64,000 nucleotides of DNA from Leptolyngbya sp. SIO1E4 (GTDB lineage Bacteria > Cyanobacteriota > Cyanobacteriia > Phormidesmidales > Phormidesmidaceae), in the NCBI GenBank assembly GCA_010672825.2, contig JAAHFU020000001.1, positions 1,116,001-1,180,000 of the forward strand, in the 5' to 3' direction. Under the pieces are notes generated by a model. The model ran no database searches. It was given only the letters and a program-made list of their open reading frames with translations, and was not told the DNA's origin. How positions within the stretch are numbered: the stretch's first letter is position 1; each line of letters opens with the position of its first letter. Made by a program: the position numbers and the translations under genes. Shown piece after piece: positions 11,893-48,271 of the stretch.

Positions 11893-11949
11893 AGACCCTT
11901 TAAGAACCCAATACGTAGAGAGGGGGATGTATCGTCCTCTCTACCCTTG

Positions 11950-11980
11950 GGCGGGCAGTGTGCGATCTGCCCGCCTTTTT
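11950..11980 (+). terminator. intrinsic terminator of phoX
   Basis: A 9-bp stem GGCGGGCAG / CTGCCCGCC with an 8-base loop is followed by TTTTT, about 57 bp after the phoX stop. Confidence 0.92.
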
Positions 11981-12047
11981 GCTTGTGAGGGTGACCGGCA
12001 AGGGGGTACAAGGTAAAGGTACACTTCACGCGCCCAAGGGAGTCTTT

Positions 12048-12683: not shown

Positions 12684-12748
12684 GTCGGCATGGTTGAGCG
12701 CCCCTAAACCTACGCCATCATGAAACAGGTGCGCTATCAGAACAAGCC

Positions 12749-13405
12749 TTGACGACTCCGATTTTTGACATTGACCAAGCCATACCGCTGTTGCGCGAGG
12801 CCGTGAAGCCCTTCCCAAAGGCAGCCATGTTTCAACTGGCAGACGAGGGATTTGCTTCACTCTACGAACAGCTGATTTCCTGCATTATTTCTATTCGCAC
12901 TTACGATGAGGTCAGTGTCCCGGTCTCTCACAAACTCTTTGCCCGTGCCCGCACGCCAGCCCAGATGATTGAGCTTAACGTGTCTGAAATTTTGGAACTG
13001 ATTCGAGAATCTACTTTTCCAGAAAACAAGGCCGAGCAAATTCACCAAATTTCCCAGCAGATACTGAATGATTTCGATGGCGAGCTGCCTGCTGACCCAC
13101 AGGTACTCACCCAATTCAAAGGCGTTGGGCCAAAATGCGCACACCTGGCGCTAGGGGTGGCCCGCGGCTATCCCTGCATTAGTGTGGATGTGCATGTGCA
13201 TCGGGTGACAAACCGCTGGGGCTATGTAGACACCAAAACACCTGAAAAGACCATGAAAGCTCTGGAGGTTCAACTGCCGCAGGCATATTGGGTGGAGATT
13301 AATCAGCTGCTGGTCCCTTTCGGCAAACACATCTGCAGAGGTCGTTATCCCAAATGCCGCAGCTGCCCTCTGGAAACGATGTGTCATCAAATCGGAGTGG
13401 GCTAA
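12749..13405 (+). CDS. nth: endonuclease III-like DNA glycosylase with [4Fe-4S] cluster
   Basis: The 218-residue HhH-GPD glycosylase/AP lyase excises oxidised pyrimidines. The helix-hairpin-helix FKGVGPKCAHLAL contains the catalytic Lys129, and SVDVHVHRVTNRW holds the catalytic Asp147. The C-terminal CRGRYPKCRSCPLETMC fits the C-x6-C-x2-C-x5-C iron-sulfur loop. The N-terminal ISIRT deviates from the usual LSAQT, as in the Nth-like subgroup. The start is a TTG at 12749; no ATG or GTG is available in frame upstream. It lies 65 bp after tenA. Confidence 0.87.
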   Translation: MTTPIFDIDQAIPLLREAVKPFPKAAMFQLADEGFASLYEQLISCIISIRTYDEVSVPVSHKLFARARTPAQMIELNVSEILELIRESTFPENKAEQIHQISQQILNDFDGELPADPQVLTQFKGVGPKCAHLALGVARGYPCISVDVHVHRVTNRWGYVDTKTPEKTMKALEVQLPQAYWVEINQLLVPFGKHICRGRYPKCRSCPLETMCHQIGVG

Positions 13406-13439
13406 GGGTGGCCTGTACCATTGATGCGGGGTCATCAGG

Positions 13440-14195
13440 TTATTTCCGCACGATACCCAGCCCCATTTCTTCATAGGGAGCCAGCAGTTGGGCAGCAGTC
13501 GCAGGCTCTGTCACTAAATGGGTTAGCGCATTTACTGGATTGACAACGTACGGAGCAACTGTTCCCAATTTCTCAGAGGACGCCAGGGCAATGACCTCTG
13601 CTGCACAGGACATCATCATTCGTTTGACATGGGCCTCCTCATAATCGTAGACAGTGATGCCGGTTTCGGGGTGCAACCCAGCGACGCCTAGAAAACACAG
13701 ATCAGCTCGAAACTGCTGCAACGCTTTAACCGTCTCAATCCCAACGACCACCTGTAGGTCTTTATTTAAATGACCGCCTAAAACAATTACCTCGATTTGT
13801 GGATGTTGCATTAATACCGTCGCGATCGGAGGACTGTTCGTCACAAGGGTGGCCTTTAAGTCTGGCGGCAGATTTTGAGCCAGCAAGAAAGCTGTTGTAC
13901 CACTATCCAGAATGACGACTTGCCCAGGGCGAATCAACCTAGCGGCGGCTTTGGCAATTTCCTGCTTTGCAAGGGGCGCTTGATTTTGGCGAGTCTTGTA
14001 ACTGTAAGCCGTGGGGGATTTTGGGAGGGCACCACCATGAACCCGATGCAGCAACCCCGCGTCTGCCATTTCCCGTAAATCTCGACGGATGGTATCTTCT
14101 GAAACCTTCAGATCGGCACTCAGTTTCGACGAGAGAACTTTGCCATCTCGCCGCAGCAGCCCCAGGATGTGCTGTCTTCGCTCTTCAGTCAGCAT
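13440..14195 (-). CDS. DeoR family transcriptional repressor
   Basis: The 251-residue product has an N-terminal winged helix (LTEERRQHILGLLRRDGKV, then the recognition helix in VSEDTIRRDLREM) and a C-terminal DeoR sensor domain with VILDSGTTAFLLA and VVLGGHL, which bind phosphorylated sugars. It is divergent from the HAD phosphatase gene at 14344, across a region rich in TTTAT repeats. That layout suggests autoregulation and control of the phosphatase. The ligand is unknown. Confidence 0.92.
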   Translation of the reverse strand: MLTEERRQHILGLLRRDGKVLSSKLSADLKVSEDTIRRDLREMADAGLLHRVHGGALPKSPTAYSYKTRQNQAPLAKQEIAKAAARLIRPGQVVILDSGTTAFLLAQNLPPDLKATLVTNSPPIATVLMQHPQIEVIVLGGHLNKDLQVVVGIETVKALQQFRADLCFLGVAGLHPETGITVYDYEEAHVKRMMMSCAAEVIALASSEKLGTVAPYVVNPVNALTHLVTEPATAAQLLAPYEEMGLGIVRK

Positions 14196-35097: not shown

Positions 35098-35149
35098 AGT
35101 TCGTTATCCGTGATTGATTTGTGGGGAATGGGAAGTGAGGGGGAGGAGT

Positions 35150-35246
35150 TATAGCCCTATTCAGTTCAATCCAGTACGTTTTGGTGAAGGCAGGGCCTAG
35201 GGTTTGGGGTCTAGGGTGTATGTGATCCAAATGCACACCGCTATAA
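35150..35246 (+). repeat. dispersed repeat family A, copy A2
   Basis: Runs from TATAGCCCTATTCAGTTC through GGGCCTAGGGTTTGGGG and TCTAGGG to GCACACCGCTATA, about 97 bp. It lies between the Rieske and the DMGDH-like genes, opposite to their direction. Its core has four G-runs fitting a quadruplex motif. The rest of the 284-bp gap is G- or C-rich low-complexity sequence. Confidence 0.85.
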
Positions 35247-35381
35247 GGAGTTAGAGAATCCAGGGAATGGGGAGTCGAGGATGGGTTATTGCAGAGGAAT
35301 TGGATACTCGCAGGCAGAAAGCAGGTGTCAATTCAGACTTAATTTGCATCCCATCCTCTAACTCCCTACTTCCCATGCCCC

Positions 35382-36647
35382 TTACCTCCCGACCTCCCCA
35401 TCCACACCTCCAACCGCCTTAGCGACCTGCTGCTGGAATCGATAAACCGTTTGCTCTAGGGCGGGGGAAAAGCAGCCTCCGGTGAATTTGGGTGACTGGC
35501 GTCCGACTTGCATGCGCTCAATCATGTCGATGTCTTCGTCGTTGGTAACTTTCCACAAATCGATGGGGAGGTGACGCAGGGCGGTGTTCTCGGGGGTCAT
35601 GGCGTCATCGCCTACGAAGTAGAACACCATGCGTTCGGCTGTTTGGTCGGGTTGGAGGGGGTTCACGGTAAAGACGAGGAAATAGTCGGGATGAACTCCC
35701 AGCATTAGGTTGGGGAAAACGGTGATATATTCGGCGACAGTTTGTTTGCCCATATCTGCCAGGTTCGGGAAGGTGGGCAGCGATCGCCCCTCAATCACGC
35801 CGCTTTGATAACGCAAACTCCCCTGCCCGACATGGGGATCGGCAACGTCAAAGCCAAAATGGTCTTCCATGCGGGAGCAGTTGTTCAGAGCGGGATGCAC
35901 CCAACTCAGGTGATAACTTTCAGAGAAATTTTCGACGGCGAGCTTCCAATTCGCGTTGCAGGTCAGAGTGACCGCTTTAGATTCGCGACGCAGCAAGCTG
36001 AGGTCATAGCCTGACCAGCGCTCAATCACGGGTTGCAGATAAGTTTTCAGCGGTGGGGCGTCTCCCGACAAGTTAACAAAGACCATGTCTAACCACTGTT
36101 CGCAGCGGATGGGGACGAGCCCTTTGCTGGCGCGATCAAAGCCAGCATGGGAGTCTTGGTAATACCCCCCAAAGTGAGGCGTGCTTTTAAGGGTACCGTC
36201 TAGCTTATAGGCCCAGGAATGATAGGGACACCGGAGACTGCCTTGCACGTTGCAGGGCTGATTGACTAACTGCAGACCCCGGTGGCTGCAGACGTTGTGA
36301 AAGGCCCGCAGCTTACTCCCTTTTTCTGTCCCGGCTTGACCACCGGGCCTGCGACCATCGCGCACCAAAACAATGGGCATGCCCGCCACTTCGGTCGGAT
36401 AAACATCCCCAGGATTAGGCACATCTGATGCTAGCCCGACACAGACCCAATAGCGACTGAAAACGGTTTGACGCTCGTGTTGCAGATAGCGAGGCTGGGT
36501 GTAAGCGTCTGCTGGCAACCCCTGCTGTGTATAAGATTCCAGGGGCATCACCGGAGCTTCTAGACAAGGCTCTATTGTCTGCACCCCCTCAAGGCTATGC
36601 ATTAAAGAGACATCAGAACAGGGAGCAAATGCATTTTCTAGATTCAT
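35382..36647 (-). CDS. Rieske mononuclear-iron oxygenase, large subunit (GbcA/CMO-like)
   Basis: The 421-residue protein has a Rieske [2Fe-2S] site Cys120-x-His122 / Cys140-x2-His143 and a mononuclear-iron site NWKLAVENFSESYHLSWVHP (His246 and His251), with the third acidic ligand likely in the NDEDIDMIERM region. The family includes glycine-betaine demethylase GbcA, choline monooxygenase and carnitine oxygenase. In this locus glycine betaine to dimethylglycine is the best fit. No reductase subunit gene is adjacent; a cellular ferredoxin could supply electrons. ATG at 36647 with GGCGGAG just upstream. Confidence 0.88.
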   Translation of the reverse strand: MNLENAFAPCSDVSLMHSLEGVQTIEPCLEAPVMPLESYTQQGLPADAYTQPRYLQHERQTVFSRYWVCVGLASDVPNPGDVYPTEVAGMPIVLVRDGRRPGGQAGTEKGSKLRAFHNVCSHRGLQLVNQPCNVQGSLRCPYHSWAYKLDGTLKSTPHFGGYYQDSHAGFDRASKGLVPIRCEQWLDMVFVNLSGDAPPLKTYLQPVIERWSGYDLSLLRRESKAVTLTCNANWKLAVENFSESYHLSWVHPALNNCSRMEDHFGFDVADPHVGQGSLRYQSGVIEGRSLPTFPNLADMGKQTVAEYITVFPNLMLGVHPDYFLVFTVNPLQPDQTAERMVFYFVGDDAMTPENTALRHLPIDLWKVTNDEDIDMIERMQVGRQSPKFTGGCFSPALEQTVYRFQQQVAKAVGGVDGEVGR

Positions 36648-36732
36648 ACTCCGCCTCGCTGCTCATAACTTAACGACTGGAATGGCACAACTCGATGGGT
36701 AATCGACTGGGAAGAAGGTTTCAATCACAGGG

Positions 36733-36758
36733 GTATTTCATCTGTACAGATGAAATAC
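36733..36758. promoter_or_regulatory. 26-bp perfect palindrome, candidate operator
   Basis: The half-site GTATTTCATCTGT is followed by its exact complement. It lies 86 bp upstream of the Rieske ATG. The central CTGTACAG is of the size and symmetry used by GntR-type dimers; the GntR/UTRA gene at 40892 is a plausible binder. This is inference from position. Confidence 0.6.
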
Positions 36759-36926
36759 TCAAACCACAGAGAAATTCACAGGTGAGCCGTCACCTCTGCT
36801 CAGCACTAACGGCTAGCCTAAAAATCTTCACCAAAAGATTTCCCTAGCGGCCCTAAAAAACACGGCCTGAGCAAGGCCTGAATCTAGGCGCAAAGGACTT
36901 TTTACTTGGTGGTCAATTACCCGCTC

Positions 36927-36950
36927 CAACACTTGTCATAACAAGTGTTG
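36927..36950. repeat. inverted repeat, 10-bp arms and 4-base loop
   Basis: CAACACTTGT, loop CATA, ACAAGTGTTG. It is in the divergent spacer of the Rieske and BCCT genes. It may be an operator or an RNA hairpin. Confidence 0.7.
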
Positions 36951-37570
36951 AAACTAGACGATAAAACTTGCAATTGTCCAAAAAATGTTTTCTGTTTGAC
37001 AATTTATAGATCTTTTTTGAAAGTTCTTTTATAAACAGTGCTAATGCAAGGCAATGGCTTGACTCAATTGCTTTTTAAGCGCGTTGGTCAACTGAAGCGA
37101 GACCTATAGCAATGAGCTTGACAACCACAGGTATCCCCCAGAAACCTTATCCTGCAATATTTCTACATATTTTGCCATTGCAGAAAAGTTTAAGGGTTCA
37201 CAAGCCAAATAGCCTTTATTATCATGAAATCTTGAAATTCAAAACTTGTAGTAACAACCTGTATCCCTCAAAACAGAAGCCCATTTATGGTCAGCTTATT
37301 CTTTTGCTTTGAGAGTTGCCTGTGAGGTTCCTGCATGCTTTTTGCAAGAATTCTCAGGGGCGTTAGTCATAGCAGAGCTGCATTCAGTTGTTCGAGCTGT
37401 ACTGAATCTTTGTGCCTAGTGCGCAAGATGTGTGCGAGGCGTTTTAGCGATCATGGATGCTTGAATCGGCATTGACGGTGATATCCAGTTTTCAAGTTAT
37501 TGAAGTCAAGAGTTGTTCTGTTGGAGCACATCATCGTATGCGTTCCGTGTTTGTGGAGTAGACGTCATCT

Positions 37571-39229
37571 ATGACTCATCAAGACCCCATTGGCCAAGAT
37601 CAAGAAGATCTGCATCTAAATGGTCACCGTTCTCGAAGTCGCCGACAGCCTGGCGATCGCAACATTACAGGCTACGGCTTTGACTTTCACCCAGAGGTAT
37701 TTCTGGTCTCTGCCGGGTTGATTCTGCTGTTTGTGGTTGTGACGCTGATTTTTCAAGAGCCTGCAGAGAATGCTTTTGGCGCCATTCAAACCTTTATTGC
37801 TGATGCTATGGGCTGGTTTTTGATCCTGTCCGTCAGCATTTATCTTGGCATCGCAATTATTTTGGCCTTTAGCAAATTTGGCAAAATCCGCCTGGGTGGA
37901 CAAAACGCTCAGCCCGATTTTCCCACCTTTGCCTGGGTTGCCATGCTCATCAGTGCTGGCATGGGGATCGGTCTCATGTTCTGGAGCGTTGCTGAACCCA
38001 TTTATCACTTCCAAGATCCACCTGCTCTGATTGGCGTGATTGATCCCCTCTCTGGGGAAGCTGCCCAGCAGGCGTTGGGCATTACCTTTTTCCACTGGGG
38101 GCTCCATGCCTGGGGGATCTATGCATTAGTGGGGCTTGCTCTGGGGTTCTTTGCCTACAATTGGGGGCTGCCGCTTACGATTCGCTCCGTGTTTTATCCC
38201 ATCTTGGGCGATCGCATTTATGGCTGGCCCGGTAATGTGGTGGATATTTTGGCCGTAGCCTCCACCTTATTTGGGCTGGCAACCTCCCTCGGATTTGGGG
38301 TACAGCAGGTCAATGCCGGGTTCAACTTTTTAGTCGGTCTACCCATTAGCACACCAATTCAGGTCGGGTTAATTGCGATCATTACAGGCTTTGCCACCGC
38401 TTCTGTAGTCTCTGGCCTGGATGCTGGGGTGCGGCGCCTCAGCGAACTCAATATGATTCTGGCCGCCATCTTCATGGGGTTTGTGTTGCTAGTAGGGCCA
38501 ACCTTGTTCATCTTGGGGTCTTTTGTCGAAACCTTAGGCTATTACGCGGCTTCCTTGCCCACCCTCAGCTTTTGGACTGAAACCTTTGAGGGGACTGCCT
38601 GGCAAAATGGATGGACTGTATTCTATTGGGGCTGGTGGGTTTCTTGGTCTCCTTTTGTGGGCATCTTTATCGCCCGCGTGTCTAAGGGGCGAACCGTTCG
38701 GGAGTTTGTGCTGGGCGTACTGCTGCTGCCGTCACTGCTCACCTTCCTGTGGATGTCAGTGTTCGGCGGCACCGCACTCTCAATGGAGTTAGGTGGCTTG
38801 CAAGGCGTTATCAGTAATGCCGTGAGTGAGAACGTGGCTACGGCCCTCTTTGTCATGATGCAACAGCTACCTCTGACAGGTATTACCTCTTTTGTCGGCA
38901 TTGTGCTGGTGGTGGTGTTCTTCGTCACGTCCTCTGATTCAGGCTCCCTCGTGGTCGATAGCCTCACCTCCGGGGGCAAGCTCGATTCTCCTATCACACA
39001 GCGTGTTTTCTGGGCTGTGACTGAAGGCGTCGTCGCTGCCGTGCTGCTATTGGGGGGCGGTCTGCAAGCGTTACAAACTGCATCGATTACGACTGGGTTA
39101 CCCTTTGCAATTGTGCTGCTTGTGATGTGCTACAGCCTGTATCGAGGTCTGAGTCAAGAGCTGGCCATGATTGAAGCCCAAGCTTTGCAGAAAACCGAAA
39201 GCGCTGCTGAAGAGGCGATCGTTCAGTAA
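37571..39229 (+). CDS. BCCT family betaine/choline/carnitine transporter
   Basis: The 552-residue protein has about twelve membrane helices. BCCT features: ILSVSIYLGIAIILAFSKFG, the glycine-rich ISAGMGIGLMFWSVAEPIYHF and the signature region WGWWVSWSPFVGIFIARVS with the aromatic substrate-binding box. A hydrophilic N-terminal tail of about 45 residues precedes helix 1; the C-terminal tail is short. It imports a quaternary amine with sodium or protons. Its position suggests it feeds the demethylation enzymes rather than only osmoprotection. Confidence 0.95.
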   Translation: MTHQDPIGQDQEDLHLNGHRSRSRRQPGDRNITGYGFDFHPEVFLVSAGLILLFVVVTLIFQEPAENAFGAIQTFIADAMGWFLILSVSIYLGIAIILAFSKFGKIRLGGQNAQPDFPTFAWVAMLISAGMGIGLMFWSVAEPIYHFQDPPALIGVIDPLSGEAAQQALGITFFHWGLHAWGIYALVGLALGFFAYNWGLPLTIRSVFYPILGDRIYGWPGNVVDILAVASTLFGLATSLGFGVQQVNAGFNFLVGLPISTPIQVGLIAIITGFATASVVSGLDAGVRRLSELNMILAAIFMGFVLLVGPTLFILGSFVETLGYYAASLPTLSFWTETFEGTAWQNGWTVFYWGWWVSWSPFVGIFIARVSKGRTVREFVLGVLLLPSLLTFLWMSVFGGTALSMELGGLQGVISNAVSENVATALFVMMQQLPLTGITSFVGIVLVVVFFVTSSDSGSLVVDSLTSGGKLDSPITQRVFWAVTEGVVAAVLLLGGGLQALQTASITTGLPFAIVLLVMCYSLYRGLSQELAMIEAQALQKTESAAEEAIVQ

Positions 39230-39233
39230 GGAA

Positions 39234-39262
39234 AGCAGGGGCATGGTAACCATGCCCCTGCT
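39234..39262 (+). other. strong hairpin between the BCCT and sarcosine-oxidase genes
   Basis: Stem AGCAGGGGCATGG / CCATGCCCCTGCT with a 3-base loop, five bases after the BCCT stop. No T-run follows, so it is more likely an mRNA stabiliser or processing signal than a full terminator. Confidence 0.75.
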
Positions 39263-39313
39263 GGGTTCGATTGCGATCCTCGACTGCGATGCATACCAGG
39301 AGAAACGACGACC

Positions 39314-40480
39314 ATGGCTCGGCATTTTGATGCCATTGTGATTGGGGCTGGGGGGGTGGGCAGTGCTGCCACCTATTACCTCGCCAAGGCAGGGCAACGT
39401 GTCTTACTGCTAGAACAGTTTGAGCTTAACCACCAGAACGGCAGTTCTTACGGTCACTCCCGCGTCATTCGCTATACCTATGACGACCCTATTTACATCA
39501 ATTTAATGCGGGATGCCTATCCCCTCTGGTTTGCCTTGCAAGAAGAGGCCGGAGAAACGCTCTATGTCAAAACCGGTGGGCTTGATTTTGGCTTCCCTGA
39601 CGTCGAAACCTTCCAGGGGCTGAAAGCCAGCATGGATGAGGCAACCCTAGATTACGAACATCTGACTCGGGATGAAATTGCCCGACGCTATCCCCAGTTT
39701 GTTCTCCAAGACGGTATGGAGGGATTGTTCCATGCTGATTCGGGGCTGTTGCGGACGTCTCGCTGCGTCTTGGCCCATGTGCGCTTAGCCCAAGCCCGAG
39801 GTGCAACGGTGATGGATCAAACCCCCGTGGTAAAAGTGACACCCAGTGCAAGTGGGGTCGAAGTCCAGACCGAGAAAGAAACCTTTAGCTGCGATCGCAT
39901 TGTCTTAACCACTGGCAGCTGGGCCAAGGGGCTCTTGGCAGAGCAGGGTATCGACCTGCCGCTAAAGATCATGCCCTGTCAGCTAGGGTTTTACCAGCCT
40001 GACAAAACTGCCGACTTTGCACCGGGAACTTTTCCAGTTTTCTTTGCCCATATGAACGGCATCTATGGCGAAATGCCCTACGGCATTCCCCATGAAGACC
40101 CCAGTATCGGCGTTAAAATCACCACCTTCTATGGCTGGGAGACGGTGAACACTCCCGGCGAAGTAGACTATACGCCCAGTCAAGCGTGGACGGAGCACAT
40201 CCGCGACTTTGCTCGGGAATATATCCCAGGGGCTGCTGGGCCGTTGGTGAGTACCCGTCGCTGCCTATACACCCTCACGCCCGATAAACATTTCATTGTG
40301 GATCAGCATCCCAGCTATTCTCACGTTGTCATCGGGGCTGGCTTTTCTGGCCATGGGTTTAAGTTCACCACACTGACGGGCAAGATGCTAGCCGATTTGG
40401 CCGTTCATGGCAGTACCCCCCATGACACCAGCCTGTTTAAAGTCGCCCGATTTCAGACCGTTAAGGCATCGTCGAGGTAA
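39314..40480 (+). CDS. monomeric sarcosine oxidase / N-methyl-amino-acid oxidase type flavoprotein
   Basis: The 388-residue FAD enzyme has GAGGVGSAATYYLAKAG at the N-terminus and the MSOX/MTOX-family covalent-flavin cysteine Cys317 in TRRCLYTLTPDKHFIVD. It ends with the family's GAGFSGHGFKF FAD-contact segment. MSOX oxidises sarcosine to glycine, formaldehyde and peroxide; relatives act on N-methyltryptophan or pipecolate. Genomic context favours sarcosine. AGGAG lies 11 bases before the ATG. Same strand as BCCT, 84 bp downstream. Confidence 0.88.
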   Translation: MARHFDAIVIGAGGVGSAATYYLAKAGQRVLLLEQFELNHQNGSSYGHSRVIRYTYDDPIYINLMRDAYPLWFALQEEAGETLYVKTGGLDFGFPDVETFQGLKASMDEATLDYEHLTRDEIARRYPQFVLQDGMEGLFHADSGLLRTSRCVLAHVRLAQARGATVMDQTPVVKVTPSASGVEVQTEKETFSCDRIVLTTGSWAKGLLAEQGIDLPLKIMPCQLGFYQPDKTADFAPGTFPVFFAHMNGIYGEMPYGIPHEDPSIGVKITTFYGWETVNTPGEVDYTPSQAWTEHIRDFAREYIPGAAGPLVSTRRCLYTLTPDKHFIVDQHPSYSHVVIGAGFSGHGFKFTTLTGKMLADLAVHGSTPHDTSLFKVARFQTVKASSR

Positions 40481-40891
40481 GTGAAAAAATATGAGGCATC
40501 CGGGCAACAGCTTTGTCCGTCCTTCAGGATGGTTTAGTAGCGGGATGCTTGAACCTTCTCATACCCATTCTCCAAAGCAGCGCTACCTAAGGACTTATGT
40601 ATAACCAGGAGTCTTGACAAGGGTAGGAAGGGTCTGATCTGTAGCATTAGAAACGAGAACGGGTATACCATCCTCTAATGGCAATTATTCAGGGGCAGCA
40701 CTACTAGGGTGATGGGGGTATTCCGCTGACCTCAGACGCCGTCGAACAGGGTCGCCATCCTGGATCGCGCGGGCGTAGGGGGTGATAAGGCAGATCTAAC
40801 AGGCTGCTTTAGCTCATTGTCGGCTTGGCCGTTCGAATGCCTCAAACTCAATTTTTCTTTACTCATAGGATATCTGGAGTGACCCACGAGA
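40481..40891. other. intergenic region before the GntR gene
   Basis: About 410 bp. It contains an inverted repeat (40645-40680) around a GGTATACC core, a possible GntR-family site. No gene found. Confidence 0.45.
40645..40680. promoter_or_regulatory. inverted repeat with GGTATACC core, candidate operator
   Basis: CATTAGA at 40645-40651 and TCTAATG at 40674-40680 flank the palindrome GGTATACC (40662-40669). HutC-type GntR regulators favour GT..TA..AC sites, so this may be an autoregulatory site. Tentative. Confidence 0.4.
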
Positions 40892-41677
40892 ATGACGTCA
40901 TCTTCTAAGGTTCCACAGGAGCCCAGTGCTTCGAAACATCCTCTACACATCGTTATTTCAGAGCAGCTAAAAGAACAAATTGAAGCAGGTCAATACGTCC
41001 CTGGAGAGCGTTTACCCAGTGAATTTGATCTAGGAAAAGCCTTCAACGTTAGCCGCACCACCATCCGTCGAGCGATCGCCAACCTGATTCAACAAGGGCT
41101 GGTAACCACTCAACAGGGCAAGGGGATTTTTGTCAGCGATCGCCACAAAATCAGTTTCTCAATGTCTAACCCGCTGATGCAATTTGACCTTGCCCTCAAG
41201 CAACAGGGGTACACCGGGCACGTTCATTCTTTGCGGTTCCAGCTCACAAAGGCTCCTGCTGAAGTCACTCGAATGCTGCAGCTCTCGCATCAAGAAACCC
41301 AAGTCTACTGGCAAGAAAAAATTATTTATGCGGATGAATGTCCCATTGCCTTAGACATTACGTATTTGCCCGAAGCCATGGGCGCGGCGCTCGCTAAGCC
41401 TTTGCAGGAAGGTTTTACCTATAGTGCCTTGATGATGAACGGCATTGATCTCAACGCTGCCGAAGTCCGTTTAGAAAGCGTGCCCGCCACCTACGAACTG
41501 AGTGAGTATTTAGCCGTGCCGCTGGGGATGCCGCTGTTGGTCTTCAGCTATGTGGTCTATTGGGGAAAATGCACCCCTGCAGCCTGTGGCAAAACTTTGT
41601 CTCGCTCTGACTGGACCTGCTACACCTCCCAAATTGAAGTGGCACAGGCAAGCGATGGCGGCGATCACACCCCTTAG
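40892..41677 (+). CDS. GntR family regulator with UTRA ligand domain (HutC type)
   Basis: The 261-residue protein has an N-terminal winged helix (YVPGERLPSEFDLGKAF, then NVSRTTIRRAIANLI, residues ~30-95) and a C-terminal UTRA domain (~115-250, ending in KTLSRSDWTCYTSQIEV). HutC-type regulators are relieved by the substrate or an intermediate of the pathway they control. It lies after the BCCT and oxidase genes in the same direction and is the obvious regulator of the locus. A family-A repeat begins 15 bp after its stop. Confidence 0.92.
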   Translation: MTSSSKVPQEPSASKHPLHIVISEQLKEQIEAGQYVPGERLPSEFDLGKAFNVSRTTIRRAIANLIQQGLVTTQQGKGIFVSDRHKISFSMSNPLMQFDLALKQQGYTGHVHSLRFQLTKAPAEVTRMLQLSHQETQVYWQEKIIYADECPIALDITYLPEAMGAALAKPLQEGFTYSALMMNGIDLNAAEVRLESVPATYELSEYLAVPLGMPLLVFSYVVYWGKCTPAACGKTLSRSDWTCYTSQIEVAQASDGGDHTP

Positions 41678-41854: not shown

Positions 41855-42661
41855 TCAAATTGAGAGTTGCCCTAAGAAAAACCGCAGCTGCTGTTGGGTT
41901 TGCCACACATAATCAGTGGGGTTCCACAACTCCCGGAGGCCAAAATCAATCAGCTGTGCCGGAACCAAATGATCACGGCGTTCCACCAGCATCATGCGCT
42001 CTAAAATCCACGGATCGCGAGAATATTCTGGATGGCCGGAAAAAACCAAAATGTGACTGCCTAGCATCCACCCTAGATATTCTGTCACGCCGCTGGTGCC
42101 TAGGGACACCGCTCCAGGCGGAAGCTCAACAACCCCATCATTGTGATGGACTTGGATGGCGTAGGCAGTGCGATCGGTGCCAAAATACGTCTGCGCTGCC
42201 GGGCTGAGGTTAAGGGTCACGACGGATAGCTCAGTGCCGGGGGGGTTACGCTCAACCTTGCCCCCTAAAGCCTGGGCCACAATCTGAGGCGCAAAGGAAA
42301 ACCCTGACAGGCGTATCTGCTGGCGATGGTAGTCCTGAATGACGGCACACAGTTCTGCAATCCAATCATCCGGATCATAGGCCCCACTGGCAGAACCGGA
42401 GATGACGATGCCGTCCAGATTCGCAAGGTCTTCTTTGCTGGGGTAATGGGATTTACGGGGTTCGTATTTAATCAGCTCGACACTGCTTAGCGCTACCCCA
42501 CCCAGATCTTCAGGCTGACTTTCTTGACACACTGTGTCGAAGAGCTGTCGGTGCATTTCATAGAATCCATCAGGATAGCGCTCTAAAATTTCGGGAGCCC
42601 ACCAGCGGAGATCGTCAGTGCCGACATCAAAACTGGCGAGGCGGAGGGTTTTGGGGGGCAT
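41855..42661 (-). CDS. class I glutamine amidotransferase-like protein lacking the catalytic Cys
   Basis: The 268-residue protein has the class I GATase fold: LDGIVISGSASGAYD, then GFSFAPQIVAQALGG and later VFSGHPEYSRD with His and Glu. The nucleophile elbow, normally GxCFGHQ, reads GFSFAPQ, so Ser122 replaces Cys, and Gly and His are also changed. It is the last gene of the five-gene operon with a glutamine-synthetase-like ligase, where PuuD-type gamma-glutamyl hydrolases would be expected. It may be a serine enzyme, a binding protein or inactive. ATG at 42661. Confidence 0.8.
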   Translation of the reverse strand: MPPKTLRLASFDVGTDDLRWWAPEILERYPDGFYEMHRQLFDTVCQESQPEDLGGVALSSVELIKYEPRKSHYPSKEDLANLDGIVISGSASGAYDPDDWIAELCAVIQDYHRQQIRLSGFSFAPQIVAQALGGKVERNPPGTELSVVTLNLSPAAQTYFGTDRTAYAIQVHHNDGVVELPPGAVSLGTSGVTEYLGWMLGSHILVFSGHPEYSRDPWILERMMLVERRDHLVPAQLIDFGLRELWNPTDYVWQTQQQLRFFLGQLSI

Positions 42662-42702
42662 GGGGAGGGGGAATAGGGGTAAGGGGAATAGGGGTAAGGG
42701 GT
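42662..42702 (+). repeat. G-rich tandem repeat with quadruplex potential
   Basis: Two tandem units of GGGGAATAGGGGTAA lie in a run of five or more G4 tracts on the plus strand, directly before the amidotransferase-like ATG. In the mRNA of that gene the run is C-rich. A similar GGGG-rich run lies at about 47100-47175 before the ligase gene. Confidence 0.7.
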
Positions 42703-42760
42703 GTTGGATGAGCAATCACTCATCACCGACCACCCATCACCAACGACTCAGCATCCATCT

Positions 42761-43648
42761 CTAAGCCAAGAAATCATCACAGTAGTCGGCGAGGAAGGGG
42801 GTGCGATAGCCGTCTTGGTGCCAAAGAATGGGGAAGAAGCTTTCGTCCATTTCTAGGCTGTCGATGCGGCGATAGCGGCTGAAGATGTAGCCCTGCCCGA
42901 TGCCGGGGGGTTGAAATTGGGTGGAGATGGGGAGGGTGCTAATGGCGAGGCTATGGCGGGTTTGATCGGTGGTGCGGTTGCGGCCTGAGCCATGCCAGAG
43001 ATCGCCGTGGAAGAAAATGCCGCTTCCTGGTGGCAGCTCTACCGAGATAATGTCTGGGTCTTGGATACCGGCCTCAGCGACGGCTTTCCAGAGGGGGGTG
43101 CGATAGTCGTCTTTAGGCGCGTGGAGGAAGCGTACGGTGTCTGAGCAGTTCCACTGATGAGAGCGGGGCACAATTTCGAGGGTGCCGGCTTTTGGGGTGG
43201 CGTGGCTGAGGGCAATCCAGCAAGTGATGACGGATGCCGGGTTCACCGTAGAAACATAGATGTTGTTGCGGTGAAAAGAGACTTCTGGAGCGTCGGGAGG
43301 TTTGATCCAGCAGGCATCGAAGGCGTAGCGTGCCCCCTGCCAGCCCATCAGCGTGGCATTGAGGCGGCCAATTTCACTGGAGAGGGTGTAGCCAGCCAGG
43401 GTGCGATCGCACCGCCACAGCCCAGTCATCTGACGGGTGGCATTGGGCTGGCTCAGGCCAGGGCGCCCATACCATTCGTCGGGGTAGATACCGGTTTCAA
43501 ACTGGGTATCAAAGAGGGGCTCGAAGCGATCGATGATTTGGTCGATCTGGGTGGGTGTCAGAAGATTCTCCAGAATCAAATAGCCCTGGGATTGAAATTG
43601 GGCAATCTGACTCGGCGTGAGGGATATTCGGGTTTGAACTGAGGGCAT
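42761..43648 (-). CDS. phytanoyl-CoA dioxygenase (PhyH) family protein, altered iron triad
   Basis: The 295-residue Fe/2-oxoglutarate-oxygenase-fold protein begins TRISLTPSQIAQFQSQGYLI and has ETGIYPDEW and MTGLWRCDRTLAG in common with its two neighbours. The metal motif HxD reads His126-Arg-Asn128 in SFHRNNIYV, so Asp is replaced by Asn. The distal His (FFHGDLWHGSG) and the 2-oxoglutarate Arg (TRHSLAIS) remain. It is the most diverged of the three tandem copies. It may have changed chemistry or lost activity. The ATG at 43648 was chosen by alignment to the paralogues. Confidence 0.85.
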   Translation of the reverse strand: MPSVQTRISLTPSQIAQFQSQGYLILENLLTPTQIDQIIDRFEPLFDTQFETGIYPDEWYGRPGLSQPNATRQMTGLWRCDRTLAGYTLSSEIGRLNATLMGWQGARYAFDACWIKPPDAPEVSFHRNNIYVSTVNPASVITCWIALSHATPKAGTLEIVPRSHQWNCSDTVRFLHAPKDDYRTPLWKAVAEAGIQDPDIISVELPPGSGIFFHGDLWHGSGRNRTTDQTRHSLAISTLPISTQFQPPGIGQGYIFSRYRRIDSLEMDESFFPILWHQDGYRTPFLADYCDDFLA

Positions 43649-43759
43649 GGGGTCTTTGAAAAATAAGGGGGCACCGTAGGAACGGGTTTTGTTTATCAAA
43701 CCTGGCCAATGACTCAATAACGGGCTAAACCTATGCTTACGGAGGGACGAATGGGGCTA

Positions 43760-44638
43760 TTAGCCCCCGCAATAATCGGCCAAAAACGGGGTGCGATAGC
43801 CATCTTCACGCCAGACGATGGGGAAGAAACTTTCGTCCATCGTGTTGTCACCGTGGCGGCGGTATTTACCCGCGATATACCCCCCAGGGACATAGGCACC
43901 AAAGGGCTTAAATTGCGCCTCAGCCGGGACGTAGGCCAGCACCATGCTGCGACGCACAACATCCATTGTGTTTTTGCCGGAACCATGCCAGGTGTTGCCG
44001 TGATGGAAAACGCCACTACCTGGGGCAATATCGAGCTGCACGACTTCTGGTTGCTCAACGCCAGCCAGCTTGGCAGCCTGCTCCATCTCAGAGCGATAGC
44101 TCTTGCTTTGATTGTGAAATTCGGGCACGGCCTCTGACAGCGTCCACCGGTGAGACCCGCGTGCGTATTCAATCGTGCCAGCTCCAGTAACGGCATGGCT
44201 GAGGGCAAGCCAACAGACCGTCACACCGGAGGGCGTGTGGTAGTCAATGTACATGGAATCTTGGTGCAGGGTTGTTTCTTTGGCACCGCAGGGCTTTTGC
44301 CAGATGCCATCTGAGAGCAGTCGGGCACCTGACCATCCTTCCAGGGCTGCAGCAATCTGACCAATTTTGGCTGACGTGATCACGGCGGCAAGGGTGCGAT
44401 CGCACTTCCAAATCCCCGTCATTTGTCCGGCGGCTCCAGGCTTGCCCAAATAGGGATTCCAATGCCACTCGTCGGGATACACCCCTGTCTCAAATTCCCC
44501 CGCAAACAAAGGATCAAACTGGGCAATCAGCCGTTCCACCTGTTCTGGTTCGATCAGATTTTCGACCACCAAAAACCCGTCACGGTGGAACTGATCAACC
44601 TGCTCAGCGGTAATGGGAGCTTTTGTTATCGTTTGCAT
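43760..44638 (-). CDS. phytanoyl-CoA dioxygenase (PhyH) family oxygenase
   Basis: The 292-residue Fe(II)/2-oxoglutarate oxygenase has intact ligands: His125-x-Asp127 in TTLHQDSMY, the distal His in FHHGNTWHGSG, and the Arg in VRRSMVLAYVP. It is very similar along its whole length to the next gene upstream (shared HRDGFLVVENL, FETGVYPDEWHWNPYLGKPG), so a recent tandem duplication is likely. The family hydroxylates small substrates including ectoine, phytanoyl-CoA and quaternary amines. The substrate here is unknown. ATG at 44638 by match to the paralogue. Confidence 0.9.
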   Translation of the reverse strand: MQTITKAPITAEQVDQFHRDGFLVVENLIEPEQVERLIAQFDPLFAGEFETGVYPDEWHWNPYLGKPGAAGQMTGIWKCDRTLAAVITSAKIGQIAAALEGWSGARLLSDGIWQKPCGAKETTLHQDSMYIDYHTPSGVTVCWLALSHAVTGAGTIEYARGSHRWTLSEAVPEFHNQSKSYRSEMEQAAKLAGVEQPEVVQLDIAPGSGVFHHGNTWHGSGKNTMDVVRRSMVLAYVPAEAQFKPFGAYVPGGYIAGKYRRHGDNTMDESFFPIVWREDGYRTPFLADYCGG

Positions 44639-44796
44639 GATTCTCAACCCTTCATCAACAATCGTGGGGGATCAAATTGTCGTCAAGTACTCAGGAAAAA
44701 GGTTAAAAGGACAGGGGCAACCGTTCTGTCACAAAAGTACCGATCGCTCACGAAAGTTGGATTTTTCCCCTGACCCCTATCCCCATCTGACTGCGG

Positions 44797-45690
44797 CTAA
44801 GGCAACAGCGCATCGTCGCAATAGCGCGTCAAGAAAGGGGTTCGGTAGCCATCTTCGCGCCAGACAATCGGAAAGAAGCTTTCGTCCATGGTGTCGTCAC
44901 CGTAGCGTTTATACTTGCCCGCAATGTAGCCGCCAGGAACATAGGCACCCGATGGTTTGAATCGCGCCTCCGCCGGAATATAGGACACCACCAAACTGCG
45001 ACGCACCCGATCAGGCAGTTGGTTTTGCCCTGAGCCATGCCACATATGCCCATGGTGGAAGGCGCAGCTACCAGGCTTCAGATCAAGCTGCAATACCTCT
45101 GGATGCTGAACCGCTGCTTGCTGAGCCGCCTGCTCCATTTCCCAGCGATAGCTTTTGCTCGGCCCATGAAATTCAGGCACCGTCTTAGACAACGACCAGC
45201 GGTGCGACCCTCTGACATATTCAATTGTGCTACCGCCAGGGACAGCATGGCTCAGGGCAACCCAGCACACTACACAGGTTGGCGGCGTGTGATACGTGAA
45301 ATACATCGAGTCCTGGTGCAGGGTGGTAGCGTTGGCGCCAGGGGGCTTCTGCCAAATATCGTCTATGAGCAGTCGTGACCCAGACCAGCCCTCTAACGCA
45401 GCGGCTATCTGCCCAATTTTGGCCGAAAGCAATACAGCAGCGAGGGTGCGATCGCACTTCCAAACCCCCGTCATCTGCCCCGCCGCGCCAGGTTTACCCA
45501 AATACGGATTCCAATGCCACTCATCAGGGTACACCCCCGTTTCAAACTCCCCCGCAAACAACGGTTCAAATCGAGCCACCAGTTGTTCGACCACTTGGGG
45601 TGCCAGCAAATTCTCAACCACCAAAAACCCATCACGGTGGAACTGATCAATCTGCTCAGTCGTCAGAGGCGGCCTGATTTTGGTCTGCAT
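44797..45690 (-). CDS. phytanoyl-CoA dioxygenase (PhyH) family oxygenase
   Basis: The 297-residue Fe(II)/2-oxoglutarate oxygenase starts MQTKIRPPLTTEQIDQFH. It has the intact HxD motif (TTLHQDSMYF), the distal His (FHHGHMWHGSG) and Arg (VRRSLVVSYIP). It is the first of three tandem copies and begins 14 bp after the ligase stop, with AAGG just before its ATG, so it is co-transcribed. An upstream start would overlap the ligase gene and is not needed. Confidence 0.9.
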   Translation of the reverse strand: MQTKIRPPLTTEQIDQFHRDGFLVVENLLAPQVVEQLVARFEPLFAGEFETGVYPDEWHWNPYLGKPGAAGQMTGVWKCDRTLAAVLLSAKIGQIAAALEGWSGSRLLIDDIWQKPPGANATTLHQDSMYFTYHTPPTCVVCWVALSHAVPGGSTIEYVRGSHRWSLSKTVPEFHGPSKSYRWEMEQAAQQAAVQHPEVLQLDLKPGSCAFHHGHMWHGSGQNQLPDRVRRSLVVSYIPAEARFKPSGAYVPGGYIAGKYKRYGDDTMDESFFPIVWREDGYRTPFLTRYCDDALLP

Positions 45691-45704
45691 TACCTTGTCT
45701 ATCC

Positions 45705-47045
45705 TCAATACACCTCCAAATACTCCGCCACTTCCCAATCTGTAATGTGATCGTGGAACCGCGCTAGCTCAAACTGCTTCACCGTTGAAAACAGCTGGCA
45801 AAACTCTGTCCCTAGCAGCTCCTGCATGGGTTCGTCTGCTGCAAGGGCGGCTAAGGCTGCATCCAATGTTTTGGGAAAGGGGGTGAGGCTGGCATCTTCT
45901 TCACTGGGGCCTACTGTCATCGGCTGCAGTGGGCGCTGCTGCTTCAGCCCCAACAAGCCTGCCGCCAGGGTTGCTGCCGCACTCAGATAAGGGTTACTTA
46001 GCCCTGAACCAGCACGCATTTCCAGATGCGTACTGTCATCTCCCGTGGCCTTCACACGCACCATGGCGGTGCGGTCTTCAATGCCCCAACTAATATTCGA
46101 GGGGGCAAAGGTGTGAGGTTTCAGCCGTCGGTAGCAATTAGGGGTCGGCCCAATCAGAGGCATCATCGCTGCCGCATGATCGAGAATGCCTTGGGTGAAC
46201 GACTTTGCCACCGGGGAAAGCCCATCTGCAGCATCCATATCTAGAAACGCGTTGGTGCCATCCTGGTGCCAAAGGCTAATGTGAAAATGGCAACAGCAGC
46301 CTGCCATATCCGCAAAGGGTTTCGACATAAAGCTAGCCTGGTAGCCCAGATGGTGGGCAATTTCTTTGACTGCGTTTTTAAAGGTAAACGCCTTGTCTGC
46401 CCCCTGAAGCCCCATACCAGGACCATAATTAATTTCAAATTGGGAGGGGGCGTACTCACAGTTATGGGTAATCAGATCAATGCCTGCCGCCTGCAGATAC
46501 TCCAGCATTTGGCCTAGTTCAGGCACGTATTGGTTACGAATGTGGTTAAAAATATGGAGCCCGTCGAATAAAGGTTTGTGGGTCTCAGCATCCAGTAGAT
46601 AAAACTCAAACTCATGCCCCATCATCACCTCAAAGCCCATCTGCCGAGCCAAGTTCAGCAACGACTGCAGAACGTAGCGAGGGGCACCTTTGATCGGGTC
46701 GTCGGAACTCCAGTAGGCATCACAAATAACCTTGACAGTGTTGTCCATCCAGGGGACTGGCGTGCAGCTCTCAATATCAGGGAACAGCAGCATATCGCAG
46801 TACTTACGCTCTTCGTGGTAGCCCGATGCTGGCACCACCAATGAAGCCGTATCCAGCGCCAGAGTGCCCCCATAGAGGTTGAGCCCTTTGCGGGCATAGC
46901 CCTCGACCTTGCCCAGGGGGATGACTTTTAGCCGCGAAACTCCATGCAGATCAGGGATTTCGAAACGCACATACTTGACGCCCTGATCCTTTAGAGAATT
47001 GACCCAGCTAGAAATACCCTCAACACTTGGCGCAGCTACAACCAT
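45705..47045 (-). CDS. glutamine-synthetase-like gamma-glutamyl-amine ligase
   Basis: The 446-residue protein has the GS beta-grasp and catalytic domains: VKYVRFEIPDLHGVSRLKV, GHEFEFYLLD and NCEYAPSQFEINY (metal glutamates), CCCHFHISLW (ATP-site His), PNCYRRLKP and EMRAGSGLSNPYLSAAATL. It lacks the adenylylation-site Tyr of GSI-beta. The C-terminal NPYL loop differs from true GS, as in PuuA, GmaS and IpuC, which glutamylate amines. Its operon with three PhyH oxygenases suggests it activates an amine as a gamma-glutamyl derivative. The ATG at 47045 starts the conserved part; a much longer open frame upstream is Pro-rich low-complexity. Confidence 0.85.
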   Translation of the reverse strand: MVVAAPSVEGISSWVNSLKDQGVKYVRFEIPDLHGVSRLKVIPLGKVEGYARKGLNLYGGTLALDTASLVVPASGYHEERKYCDMLLFPDIESCTPVPWMDNTVKVICDAYWSSDDPIKGAPRYVLQSLLNLARQMGFEVMMGHEFEFYLLDAETHKPLFDGLHIFNHIRNQYVPELGQMLEYLQAAGIDLITHNCEYAPSQFEINYGPGMGLQGADKAFTFKNAVKEIAHHLGYQASFMSKPFADMAGCCCHFHISLWHQDGTNAFLDMDAADGLSPVAKSFTQGILDHAAAMMPLIGPTPNCYRRLKPHTFAPSNISWGIEDRTAMVRVKATGDDSTHLEMRAGSGLSNPYLSAAATLAAGLLGLKQQRPLQPMTVGPSEEDASLTPFPKTLDAALAALAADEPMQELLGTEFCQLFSTVKQFELARFHDHITDWEVAEYLEVY

Positions 47046-47280
47046 GGCTCTTGTCTTCGACGACGTCTTTAATGTCTCGGAGAATTTTGGTGGGTGTTGT
47101 ATCAGAGGGGACAAAGTAGGGAAGGGGTGAAGATAGGGGTGGAGGGGAGATAGGGGAATAGGGCAATGGGGGGCAGGATTGGGGTTAGAACTTTTCTGAT
47201 TGAGACAGGGCGATCGCCAAATGCGGTGACTGTAGGAGGAAAGGGGTGGACGTAGGGTTTCCTGTTGGGAGCAGCACGCC

Positions 47281-47394
47281 CTAGACCCCAAACCCCTAGA
47301 CCCCAGACCCCAAACCCTCAGACCCTAAACCCCTAGACCCCAAACCCTAGACCCCAAACCCCAAACGTACTGAACTCAACCAACAAAACCATAG
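47281..47394 (-). repeat. repeat family A, copy A6, with expanded telomere-like core
   Basis: On the minus strand it starts ATGGTTTTGTTGGTTGAG and CAGTACGTTTGGGG, then runs into about eleven G-runs separated by TTT, TCTA or TTTA (units such as GGGTTTGGGGTCTAG). The element's normal G-rich core has been amplified. It begins 11 bp after the stop of the peptidase-like gene, in the gene's direction. Strong quadruplex potential on the minus strand. Confidence 0.8.
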
Positions 47395-47404
47395 AACCTG
47401 CAAA

Positions 47405-48271
47405 CTACATCAACATAGGAGAACCGTTATCCCACGCGGCAATCTGAAAACCGACTTTTTCCGCAACGGCAATAAGGTGGGGGCGCACTTTGGTTGTGAC
47501 AAACAGTGCTATCCCACCTTGGGTAGGCTGATTAGGGCGCTGGAGGGATTGGGCCAAGGCTGCAGGAGGCTGAAAGTGCAGGCCATTCCAGCCGAAGTGG
47601 GGGTAGGTGTCGAGCACAGCATACAGAGCATGCCCCTTCCCATCGGAGCCAGGTGCATCGTCTTGCAGGGGTACGGAGCCTGCGCCGTCTGATTCGTTCC
47701 GCAGTTGACCAATCAGCAGCGCGAAATGGCCAACTTTCCAGTCGGCTAGTGGTGGTGATAGCTCCCCTGTTTGCAGATAGGTCAACACCGTTAGCGGCGC
47801 TAGGTGAAAGTTCCAGAGGTAGCTCGTGTGAACATTCAGAATTGGAACTGCTTGCCAGTCGGGATGGGTTTGGCAGAGGTTCCGAATGGCGTCTAGTCCG
47901 TCTACCCAGTGGGTAGTTTGCAGGGGAACGAGGCAAAAGCGACCTTGACTTAACGTTTCGGTCGCGTGGATGAGCCCGGTAACAGAGGTGCCGCAGGCAT
48001 CCAGGTTGGGGGTAGTGGGGATGCGATCGTAGTTGTGACCGAAGCGAGGGGTAGCTTTGGAAGGTAACCAATCAGCGGGATCACCCTGGCTAGGGAGAAC
48101 GGTGGCGGCTGAGAGGGCAACATCTACGGCAGATACTGAAAGCCCATCATAAACCTGCAGCAATAAAGAGACCCAGTAGGGGCCGCAGAGGTTATCCGGC
48201 TGCTGTCCTACTTTTTCGTAGCGATGTATTAGCGGTTCGAGGCCAGGGAAAGTGGTTAGTTTCAGCTGCAT
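47405..48271 (-). CDS. cysteine-peptidase-like protein of unknown function
   Basis: The 288-residue soluble protein has a Cys in a papain/C39-like context (DNLCGPYWVSLLLQVY, residues ~26-41), a possible catalytic His in VGHFALLIG (about 180-188) and an acidic residue in YAVLDTYPHFG. That order (Cys, His, Asp) fits a papain-fold peptidase, transglutaminase or acyltransferase. There is no signal peptide. I do not recognise a named family with certainty. It is on the same strand as the ligase-PhyH operon, 360 bp upstream. Confidence 0.6.
   Translation of the reverse strand: MQLKLTTFPGLEPLIHRYEKVGQQPDNLCGPYWVSLLLQVYDGLSVSAVDVALSAATVLPSQGDPADWLPSKATPRFGHNYDRIPTTPNLDACGTSVTGLIHATETLSQGRFCLVPLQTTHWVDGLDAIRNLCQTHPDWQAVPILNVHTSYLWNFHLAPLTVLTYLQTGELSPPLADWKVGHFALLIGQLRNESDGAGSVPLQDDAPGSDGKGHALYAVLDTYPHFGWNGLHFQPPAALAQSLQRPNQPTQGGIALFVTTKVRPHLIAVAEKVGFQIAAWDNGSPMLM

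Follow-up and report, generated by a model that had tools for sequence, protein, structure and literature searches.

Known gamma-glutamylation routes

In the Puu pathway of E. coli (PuuPADRCBE), as outlined in PMC8394153, an amine is glutamylated and oxidised and the glutamyl group is then hydrolysed. Aniline degradation uses a trio of a glutamine synthetase (GS)-like enzyme, a Rieske oxygenase and an amidotransferase-like enzyme. In the account given in PMC11335346, it is the gamma-glutamyl amide that the oxygenase attacks, and any surplus amide is hydrolysed by the amidotransferase-like enzyme. This report concerns a gene cluster of the cyanobacterium Leptolyngbya sp. SIO1E4, located in a stretch of 64,000 nucleotides (contig JAAHFU020000001.1, positions 1,116,001 to 1,180,000, assembly GCA_010672825.2), which is called the window. 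The cluster encodes a GS-like ligase, three PhyH-family proteins (PhyA, PhyB and PhyC), a class I amidotransferase-fold protein (GAT) and a protein of family DUF6885. It is a real and conserved gene set, larger than the five genes first noted. On balance the operon is read, with modest confidence, as a gamma-glutamylation-dependent oxidative amine pathway, most likely a catabolic one.

The aniline dioxygenase systems (AtdA1-A5, NpaA1-A5, TdnQ/T, DcaQ/T) are the closest working precedent. Like the window cluster, they co-encode a GS-like ligase, a class I amidotransferase-like protein and an oxygenase. However, they use a Rieske oxygenase and a reductase where PhyH proteins are found here, and neither of the former is encoded in the operon. 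A locus with the aniline layout (L129), presumably of the chloroaniline type, was retrieved by the search with the window GAT at 31% identity, but its amidotransferase has a Cys, its ligase lies elsewhere in the tree and no DUF6885 is annotated there. The Puu system resembles the type II clusters described below, in which a permease and a Cys-type amidotransferase recur. The slot of PuuB (gamma-glutamylputrescine oxidase, L136), which is a flavoenzyme, is taken here by PhyH oxygenases. Methylamine and trimethylamine catabolism (Tmm, which is trimethylamine monooxygenase, Tdm and GmaS) is similar in that relatives of PhyA and PhyB occur in such loci and that the window ligase is altered at the same ammonium-site positions as GmaS, but the ligase falls outside the GmaS group. 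Known methylamine routes use N-methylglutamate synthase/dehydrogenase and are not known to involve a PhyH oxygenase.

The initial annotation considered the replacement of the usual dehydrogenases by iron(II)/2-oxoglutarate (Fe/2OG) hydroxylases to be a variant not known to be described. The principle is already known from the aniline system; the oxygenase class and DUF6885 lie outside that system as it is described in PMC11335346. Searches of the open-licence literature returned nothing on PhyH with gamma-glutamylmethylamide, or on a route combining gamma-glutamyl, GS-like, 2OG dioxygenase and amine. The combination of trimethylamine, glutamine synthetase and PhyH gave nothing on the route, only a seasonal metagenome study, and a separate search gave one study, of sponge methane cycling. 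Among the matches listed for glutamine synthetase and amidotransferase in cyanobacteria, no such route was apparent from titles and the beginnings of abstracts, and DUF6885 was named in no open-licence paper searched.

The cluster and its conservation

The window belongs to a genome of 8.22 Mb in 12 contigs (G000), and its relatives in the contig collection are Leptolyngbya- and Halomicronema-like. The five genes described initially do lie on one strand, the minus strand, and at the coordinates given for them; a sixth member, the DUF6885 gene, had been overlooked. On that strand the order is DUF6885 (47405-48271), ligase (45705-47045, ATG at 47045), PhyA (44797-45690), PhyB (43760-44638), PhyC (42761-43648) and GAT (41855-42661). 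The gaps from the ligase to GAT, taken from the likely ATGs, are 14, 158, 111 and 99 bases, and this spacing fits a single operon. DUF6885 and the ligase are separated by 359 bases, and co-transcription of DUF6885 with the other five genes is possible. This gap contains short tandem repeats (47279-47366), and others lie just ahead of GAT (42668-42702). A scan for promoters and terminators found 1 and 4 sites against shuffle means of 4.4 and 7.1 and is uninformative on the limits of the operon. In the five proteins compared (all except PhyA), the nonsynonymous rate (dN) is 0.10-0.36 and the synonymous rate (dS) ranges from 1.55 to saturated.

In searches of related genomes, GAT was matched in 30 of 59 relatives at E <= 0.001, but is full-length only in the window genome and five others (five at 77-82% identity); in G003 the match covers the last 35 residues only, and the remaining genomes have distant relatives of 22-33% identity. 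The ligase was found at E <= 1e-90 in 7 of 63 family genomes, the window genome included; among these the G004 copy is cut by a contig end, the G433 copy has an in-frame TAG and the G021 copy is 63% identical. A PhyB relative at E <= 1e-40 is present in 5 of 386 phylum genomes, again counting that of the window. None of three candidate stretches was confirmed when viral contigs were queried with GAT.

A contig scan with a PhyH alignment confirmed 140 places, and the best 80 were kept as 79 loci on which all locus counts are based. These are 6 type I, 16 type II, 36 single-PhyH cyanobacterial and 21 other loci, mostly from Proteobacteria. A GS-like gene is present in 32 of the 58 cyanobacterial loci against 0.57 expected (binomial 1e-48), a figure that is only a guide since the expectation uses the rate from the five GS genes of the window genome and the loci are related by descent. 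By class, the gene is found in five of the six type I loci, in 10 of the 16 type II loci and in 17 of the 36 with a single PhyH. The loci are also not all independent: L098 overlaps L051, and L050 and L053 come from one metagenome-assembled genome (MAG). The co-occurrence of GS-like and PhyH genes exceeds chance.

Type I loci (L049-L054, five genomes) have PhyB, PhyC and GAT in the order of the window. They are largely the genomes G023, G027, G014, G012 and G433 and thus add no evidence beyond the family-genome search. The ligase lies ahead of PhyB in all except L054 (partial in L050, with a stop in L053), and DUF6885 is upstream of the ligase in L049, L051 and L052; the contigs of L050 and L053 start inside the ligase.

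Type II loci (L055-L066, L068, L070, L092 and L095) are those with an adjacent pair of PhyA-like and PhyC genes. The window ligase clade is represented in 10 of the 16, an APC permease in seven and DUF6885 in seven (a fragment in L066). A divergent Cys-type amidotransferase (GICLGSQ / GVCLGSQ) is found in 12 of them, 11 of which also have HLE or HPE, with a fragment in L066. This amidotransferase and DUF6885 occur together in seven loci, in one as a fragment, and a PuuC-like aldehyde dehydrogenase is present in only two. For each of these families, one or two members were checked by Pfam. No ligase was seen within the stretch read in L064, L065, L068 and L070, the last being a PhyA-PhyC pair from Planktothrix; L057 and L062 end too soon to judge. 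The neighbourhood search had been set beforehand as a check on the cluster, and the genes do occur together in other genera rather than in this strain only.

Of the 36 single-PhyH cyanobacterial loci, 29 encode a type 3 solute-binding protein and 11 an ammonium transporter; Tdm was found in five and Tmm in three. Among the 21 other loci, GS, Tmm and Tdm are each present in two and an ammonium transporter in one. Copper amine oxidase genes occur in 11 of the 79 loci, ten of them single-PhyH (two members were checked by Pfam), and an acyl-CoA dehydrogenase-like gene in nine. Genes of these two kinds recur as neighbours of PhyH (L076-L106, for example L081, 10918-14582), the other side being occupied by a lone type 3 solute-binding protein.

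The GS-like ligase

The ligase (PF00120, 290.6 bits) is of the glutamyl organic amine ligase type. Of 16 positions of GlnA that were compared (E. coli numbering), 11 are kept, including all ten catalytic residues (E130, E132, E213, E221, H270, R322, R340, R345, E358 and R360), and five are changed: D51 to Y, S54 to T, Y180 to L, N265 to A and E328 to F. Position 265 is Ala in both the ligase and PuuA and is Thr or Pro in GmaS. D51, Y180 and E328 are also altered in PuuA, GmaS and DcaQ. We take D51, S54, Y180 and E328 to be the ammonium-binding site of GlnA; at these four positions the ligase reads Y/T/L/F and PuuA reads P/V/V/Y. The dN of the ligase is 0.10-0.11.

In a tree of 48 rows the ligase groups with the type I and type II ligases, then with a Rhizobium plasmid ligase (100/99) and one from Thermomicrobium (96/83). 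GlnA, the GmaS/GlnT group and the ligase found beside Tmm all lie outside this clade, and the GlnA of the window genome itself forms a 100/100 pair with E. coli GlnA elsewhere. At the midpoint root PuuA falls on the side of the ligase (94/89); its branch, however, is 4.83 changes per column long, and long branches leave this placement and the deep order of the tree unsure. The ligase missed the cut-off of the PuuA equivalog NF045547 (245.9 against 650 bits) and that of the type III glutamate-ammonia ligase model TIGR03105, which is GlnT/GmaS-like (269 against 469.6 bits). An identity as an ordinary GlnA was rejected on the tree and the residue comparison. The initial assignment to a PuuA/GmaS type is borne out in part: the ligase does not group with GlnA, and it reaches neither of these cut-offs.

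A plasmid of Rhizobium sp. ACO-34A (L128) has genes for a GATase, a GS-like ligase (48.7% identity to that of the window), an amidase, a 2Fe-2S ferredoxin and a serine hydroxymethyltransferase in series (8151-13461), with ABC transporter genes upstream. By its gene content it is possibly another glutamylation-type cluster.

The PhyH proteins

All three PhyH proteins match PF05721 (PhyA 83.4, PhyB 81.5 and PhyC 96.9 bits), but only two of them fit the initial description as three Fe/2OG oxygenases. PhyA and PhyB have the intact HxD...H triad (HDH) plus the Arg, and the assignment of PhyB is also based on the tree. In PhyC the motif is HxN. The iron-binding Asp is absent from all 21 members of the PhyC alignment, which excludes L057 (partial) and L061 (a merged open reading frame, ORF), and PhyC is therefore probably non-catalytic; in six of the 21 the distal His is replaced by Arg as well. 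In 20 loci with two copies, HxD is found in the first copy; the second has HxN, except in L054, where it has HxQ. H-D-H was found in 52 of 54 single rows, the other two, which read HNH, being artefacts of ORF choice (L061 and L092, of which only the PhyC copy was kept although partner copies exist). The triad table covers 74 of the 79 loci, five having lost their PhyH through ORF choice; the first copy of L095 is split into two ORFs, and the contig ends within the second copy of L057.

The three genes had been attributed to tandem duplication. As a recent event of all three genes this was ruled out by the tree, in which PhyA/B and PhyC form separate 100/100 clades. The inner order of the two clades matches in part (L063 is deep and L068 groups with L070 in both), though not within type I. 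The separate clades and the partly matching order speak for one old duplication followed by mostly joint inheritance. In the tree PhyA is placed as the sister of all type I PhyB proteins. Of the type I loci read, only that of the window has PhyA; PhyB is the copy that the remaining type I clusters have. The dN of PhyC (0.22-0.30) is far below dS (1.55 to saturated), which indicates that PhyC is maintained by selection. A heterodimer of PhyA or PhyB with PhyC would be the simplest reading. Among PhyH enzymes of known structure, those resembling PhyB include MysH, a mycosporine enzyme, as well as antibiotic enzymes.

DUF6885 and the amidotransferase-fold protein

The DUF6885 protein (PF21819, 219.1 bits) is assigned by Pfam to this family only, with no phytochelatin-family match. 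An AF2 model based on ten sequences (predicted local distance difference test, pLDDT, 84.9) is papain-like. In VIA the first match is the primitive phytochelatin synthase Alr0975 (Z 13.8, 172 aligned, root mean square deviation (rmsd) 2.9); 22oc, a lyase entry (13.6), and a pseudomurein endoisopeptidase (13.3) tie with it to within 1 Z. DUF6885 and Alr0975 share the papain-like fold (predicted in DUF6885) and a conserved Cys, His and Asp, but are only about 11% identical. According to the titles of its PDB entries, Alr0975 forms an acyl-enzyme with glutathione. The putative triad C29, H182 and D221 is invariant in ten of ten sequences and in eight of eight when archaeal members are included, and this extends to haloarchaeal members of 26-27% identity.

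DUF6885 is found in one of 386 phylum genomes, that of the window, and no match was obtained in 14 control genomes, which include that of E. coli. It is present in 6 of 63 family genomes, five of which also have the ligase (Fisher p 1.7e-5, for genomes that are related). The ligase occurs without DUF6885 in G021 and G433, both fragmented genomes. In plasmids it was found in two Haladaptatus records only. In both, the first base of DUF6885 coincides with the final base of a gene annotated as gamma-glutamylputrescine synthetase; an M20 peptidase comes next, and a permease lies further along. The synthetase of Haladaptatus caseinilyticus scores 702.2 bits against an NCBIfam cut-off of 650; that of H. 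halobius was confirmed at the level of the GS family. A gamma-glutamyl amine context in haloarchaea is credible, because GlnA-2 of Haloferax mediterranei is described as a glutamate-putrescine ligase (PMC8394153). DUF6885 is a candidate gamma-glutamyl hydrolase or transferase.

GAT had been placed where a gamma-glutamyl hydrolase would be expected. It has no Pfam match at E <= 0.001 and was recognised through NCBIfam (best 75.2 bits, under every cut-off) and its PDB relatives. Arabidopsis gamma-glutamyl peptidase 1 is the closest of these both by sequence (76.5 bits) and by fold (9k7l; VIA Z 24.9, 221 aligned, rmsd 2.5), the next other protein having a Z of 20.0. The model (pLDDT 76.7) was made from alignment A5; alignment A4, which includes plasmid members, served for reading the motif only. 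The protein is Cys-less in the sense first noted: the nucleophilic Cys is Ser (Ser122; GFSFAPQ / GYSFAPQ), and the rest of the triad, H210 and E212, is kept as in the peptidase. Ser replaces Cys in eight of eight GAT members from seven genomes (the window, L024 and L049-L054), and the motif G-x-C-x-G-H-Q of the peptidase has become G-x-S-x-A-P-Q. Judged from its sequence, GAT is a maintained protein, with a dN (0.11-0.15) near that of the ligase. It may act as a Ser hydrolase of low rate, or have a binding or regulatory role. GAT has Ser where the hydrolase requires a Cys, and DUF6885 may carry out that step; it is the better candidate for removal of the glutamyl group.

Clues to the substrate

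A methylated or quaternary amine had been suggested as the substrate, partly on account of a neighbouring betaine locus. A methylated amine is favoured by the Tmm and Tdm genes that neighbour PhyH in single-PhyH loci and in one type I locus, L051, which adjoins Tmm, Tdm and GSm. GSm is also present in L052, and an ammonium transporter lies near L049. Tmm exceeds its cut-off of 675 bits in L025 (787.7) and L121 (854.9). Tdm, a trimethylamine N-oxide (TMAO) demethylase, scores 1170.2 in L121 against a cut-off of 1100, and 829 in L025, which is below it, the first 152 model positions being missing. The window genome has a Tmm above the cut-off and a Tdm-like gene. Two loci from proteobacterial MAGs, L121 and L124, combine PhyH, Tmm and Tdm with a GS-like ligase. 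In L121 an amino-acid permease and a glutamate-synthase-family protein (4964-6616) are present as well, a gene content that resembles methylamine loci. A search for DmmA in nine genomes gave no match, but was made without a positive control and shows nothing.

The betaine-type genes of the window lie at 32671-41677, and in this sense the operon is next to such a locus. Among them are a DAO-GcvT protein and a BCCT transporter (PF02028, 635.5 bits) that scores 573.7 with the glycine betaine model, whose cut-off is 650. The Rieske gene (35382-36647) is 5.2 kb from the operon with three other genes between, and scores 137.8 against the cut-off of 670 for GbcA, the glycine betaine monooxygenase; the substrate of its product may differ from glycine betaine. 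However, Rieske, BCCT, MTOX, GntR and DAO-GcvT genes are found in none of the six other type I stretches, some of which are short contigs. The tie between the operon and these genes is weak, and they favour a methylated amine only weakly. A role as a PuuB-like flavin oxidase was considered for MTOX (39314-40480), but the gene was excluded from the cluster, as it lies on the opposite strand, exceeds the N-methyl-L-tryptophan oxidase cut-off and is absent from the same six stretches.

Proposed pathway and alternatives

In the pathway favoured here, the ligase would use ATP to couple glutamate to a small, possibly methylated, amine and form a gamma-glutamyl amide, as its catalytic residues, altered ammonium site and clade suggest. 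PhyB, and in the window PhyA, in which the iron triad is recognised by alignment, would hydroxylate the glutamylated amine with Fe(II), 2-oxoglutarate and O2. Hydroxylation would be simplest at the carbon beside the nitrogen and would give an aldehyde and glutamine. PhyC, which is encoded right after PhyA/PhyB, would probably be a non-catalytic partner subunit. DUF6885, with its papain fold and putative thiol triad, would strip the glutamyl group or recycle unproductive gamma-glutamyl amide; it is proposed for this step because its predicted fold resembles an enzyme that forms a gamma-glutamylcysteinyl acyl-enzyme. The Ser-type GAT could have a side role at this step in one of the capacities suggested above. 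The purpose would be nitrogen scavenging or detoxification of the amine. The original idea of glutamylation, oxidation and hydrolysis gains support from the PuuP-, PuuA- and PuuD-like gene content of type II clusters, with activity and substrate still at the level of inference. More tentatively, the cluster could represent a third architecture, in which a PhyH protein and an obligate paralogue lacking the iron ligand oxidise a gamma-glutamyl amide, and DUF6885, a phytochelatin-synthase-like thiol enzyme that also occurs in haloarchaeal gamma-glutamylputrescine loci, is an unrecognised gamma-glutamyl amide hydrolase or transferase.

Several observations weigh against this pathway. Within the stretch read, Tmm, Tdm and ammonium transporter genes occur in none of the 16 type II loci, so that the link to methylated amines does not extend to type II, and GS was not seen in 19 of the 21 non-cyanobacterial loci. 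Leptolyngbya sp. BC1307 (L054/G012) has PhyB, PhyC and GAT but no ligase or DUF6885 at the thresholds used, L064 and L065 have the Cys-type amidotransferase and PhyA-PhyC but no ligase in the stretch read, and the ligase gene of L053 is the one interrupted by TAG. DUF6885 is a remnant with a stop in G013 and lies on a different contig from the ligase in G004. Foldseek places 22oc ('P210 CD lyase', 3.8e-4) just above Alr0975 (4.6e-4), both at modest E-values. In Tolypothrix brevis (L037, 6031-18001, the same as L068), the neighbours of PhyA-PhyC are, by Pfam, a P450, an acyl transferase and a polyketide synthase, with no window-type ligase; they may point to another use of the pair, in a natural-product cluster.

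The type II loci do not favour a methylated substrate, and it is possible, though not the expectation, that the same route acts on a polyamine, ethanolamine, or another primary amine or amino acid, a variant compatible with the pathway preferred here. These loci lack the Tmm/Tdm neighbours yet have the APC permease, that of L055 matching best the amino acid transporter model TIGR00909 (121.3 bits, below the cut-off), and L060 has an aldehyde dehydrogenase of the betaine/aminobutyraldehyde type (under all the cut-offs of the 25 models listed out of 38). The position of haloarchaeal DUF6885 directly after gamma-glutamylputrescine synthetase and the copper amine oxidases noted above agree with this as well. 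The Tmm-Tdm genes beside L051, the betaine-type demethylation genes near the window cluster and the difference between the ligase pocket and that of PuuA argue the other way. The division of labour at the last step may also differ: GAT could be the working hydrolase, with a Ser-His-Glu triad, and DUF6885 could serve other chemistry, for example of peptides or thiols. The uniform Ser, the retained His and Glu, the low dN and the presence of GAT without DUF6885 in L054 are consistent with this variant, which is rather doubtful all the same. A Cys-to-Ser change in class I amidotransferases usually abolishes activity, the motif around the nucleophile is altered too, and seven type II loci have DUF6885 in addition to a Cys-type enzyme.

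A biosynthetic operon, in which a gamma-glutamyl intermediate is hydroxylated for a specialised metabolite, osmolyte or signal, would account for the Tolypothrix neighbours and for the resemblance of PhyB to MysH and antibiotic enzymes, but it is unlikely, as Pfam finds neither a carrier-protein gene nor an adenylation gene in the operon of the window, and the type II permease and the Tmm/Tdm neighbours elsewhere point to breakdown. That these are merely unrelated genes loosely gathered around a betaine locus is highly improbable: partial clusters do exist (L054, L064, L065, L068 and L070), but gene order is kept across genera and the PhyA/B and PhyC clades run in parallel.

Implications

The pair of PhyA/B with PhyC and the DUF6885 protein are two parts of the cluster that deserve tests in their own right. 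If the proposed pathway is correct, the former would be a natural pair of catalytic and apparently non-catalytic Fe/2OG paralogues, and DUF6885, a family without known function, would gain a testable role. Cyanobacteria and some Proteobacteria would then oxidise amines by means of an Fe/2OG enzyme, which bears on the use of amine nitrogen by phototrophs.

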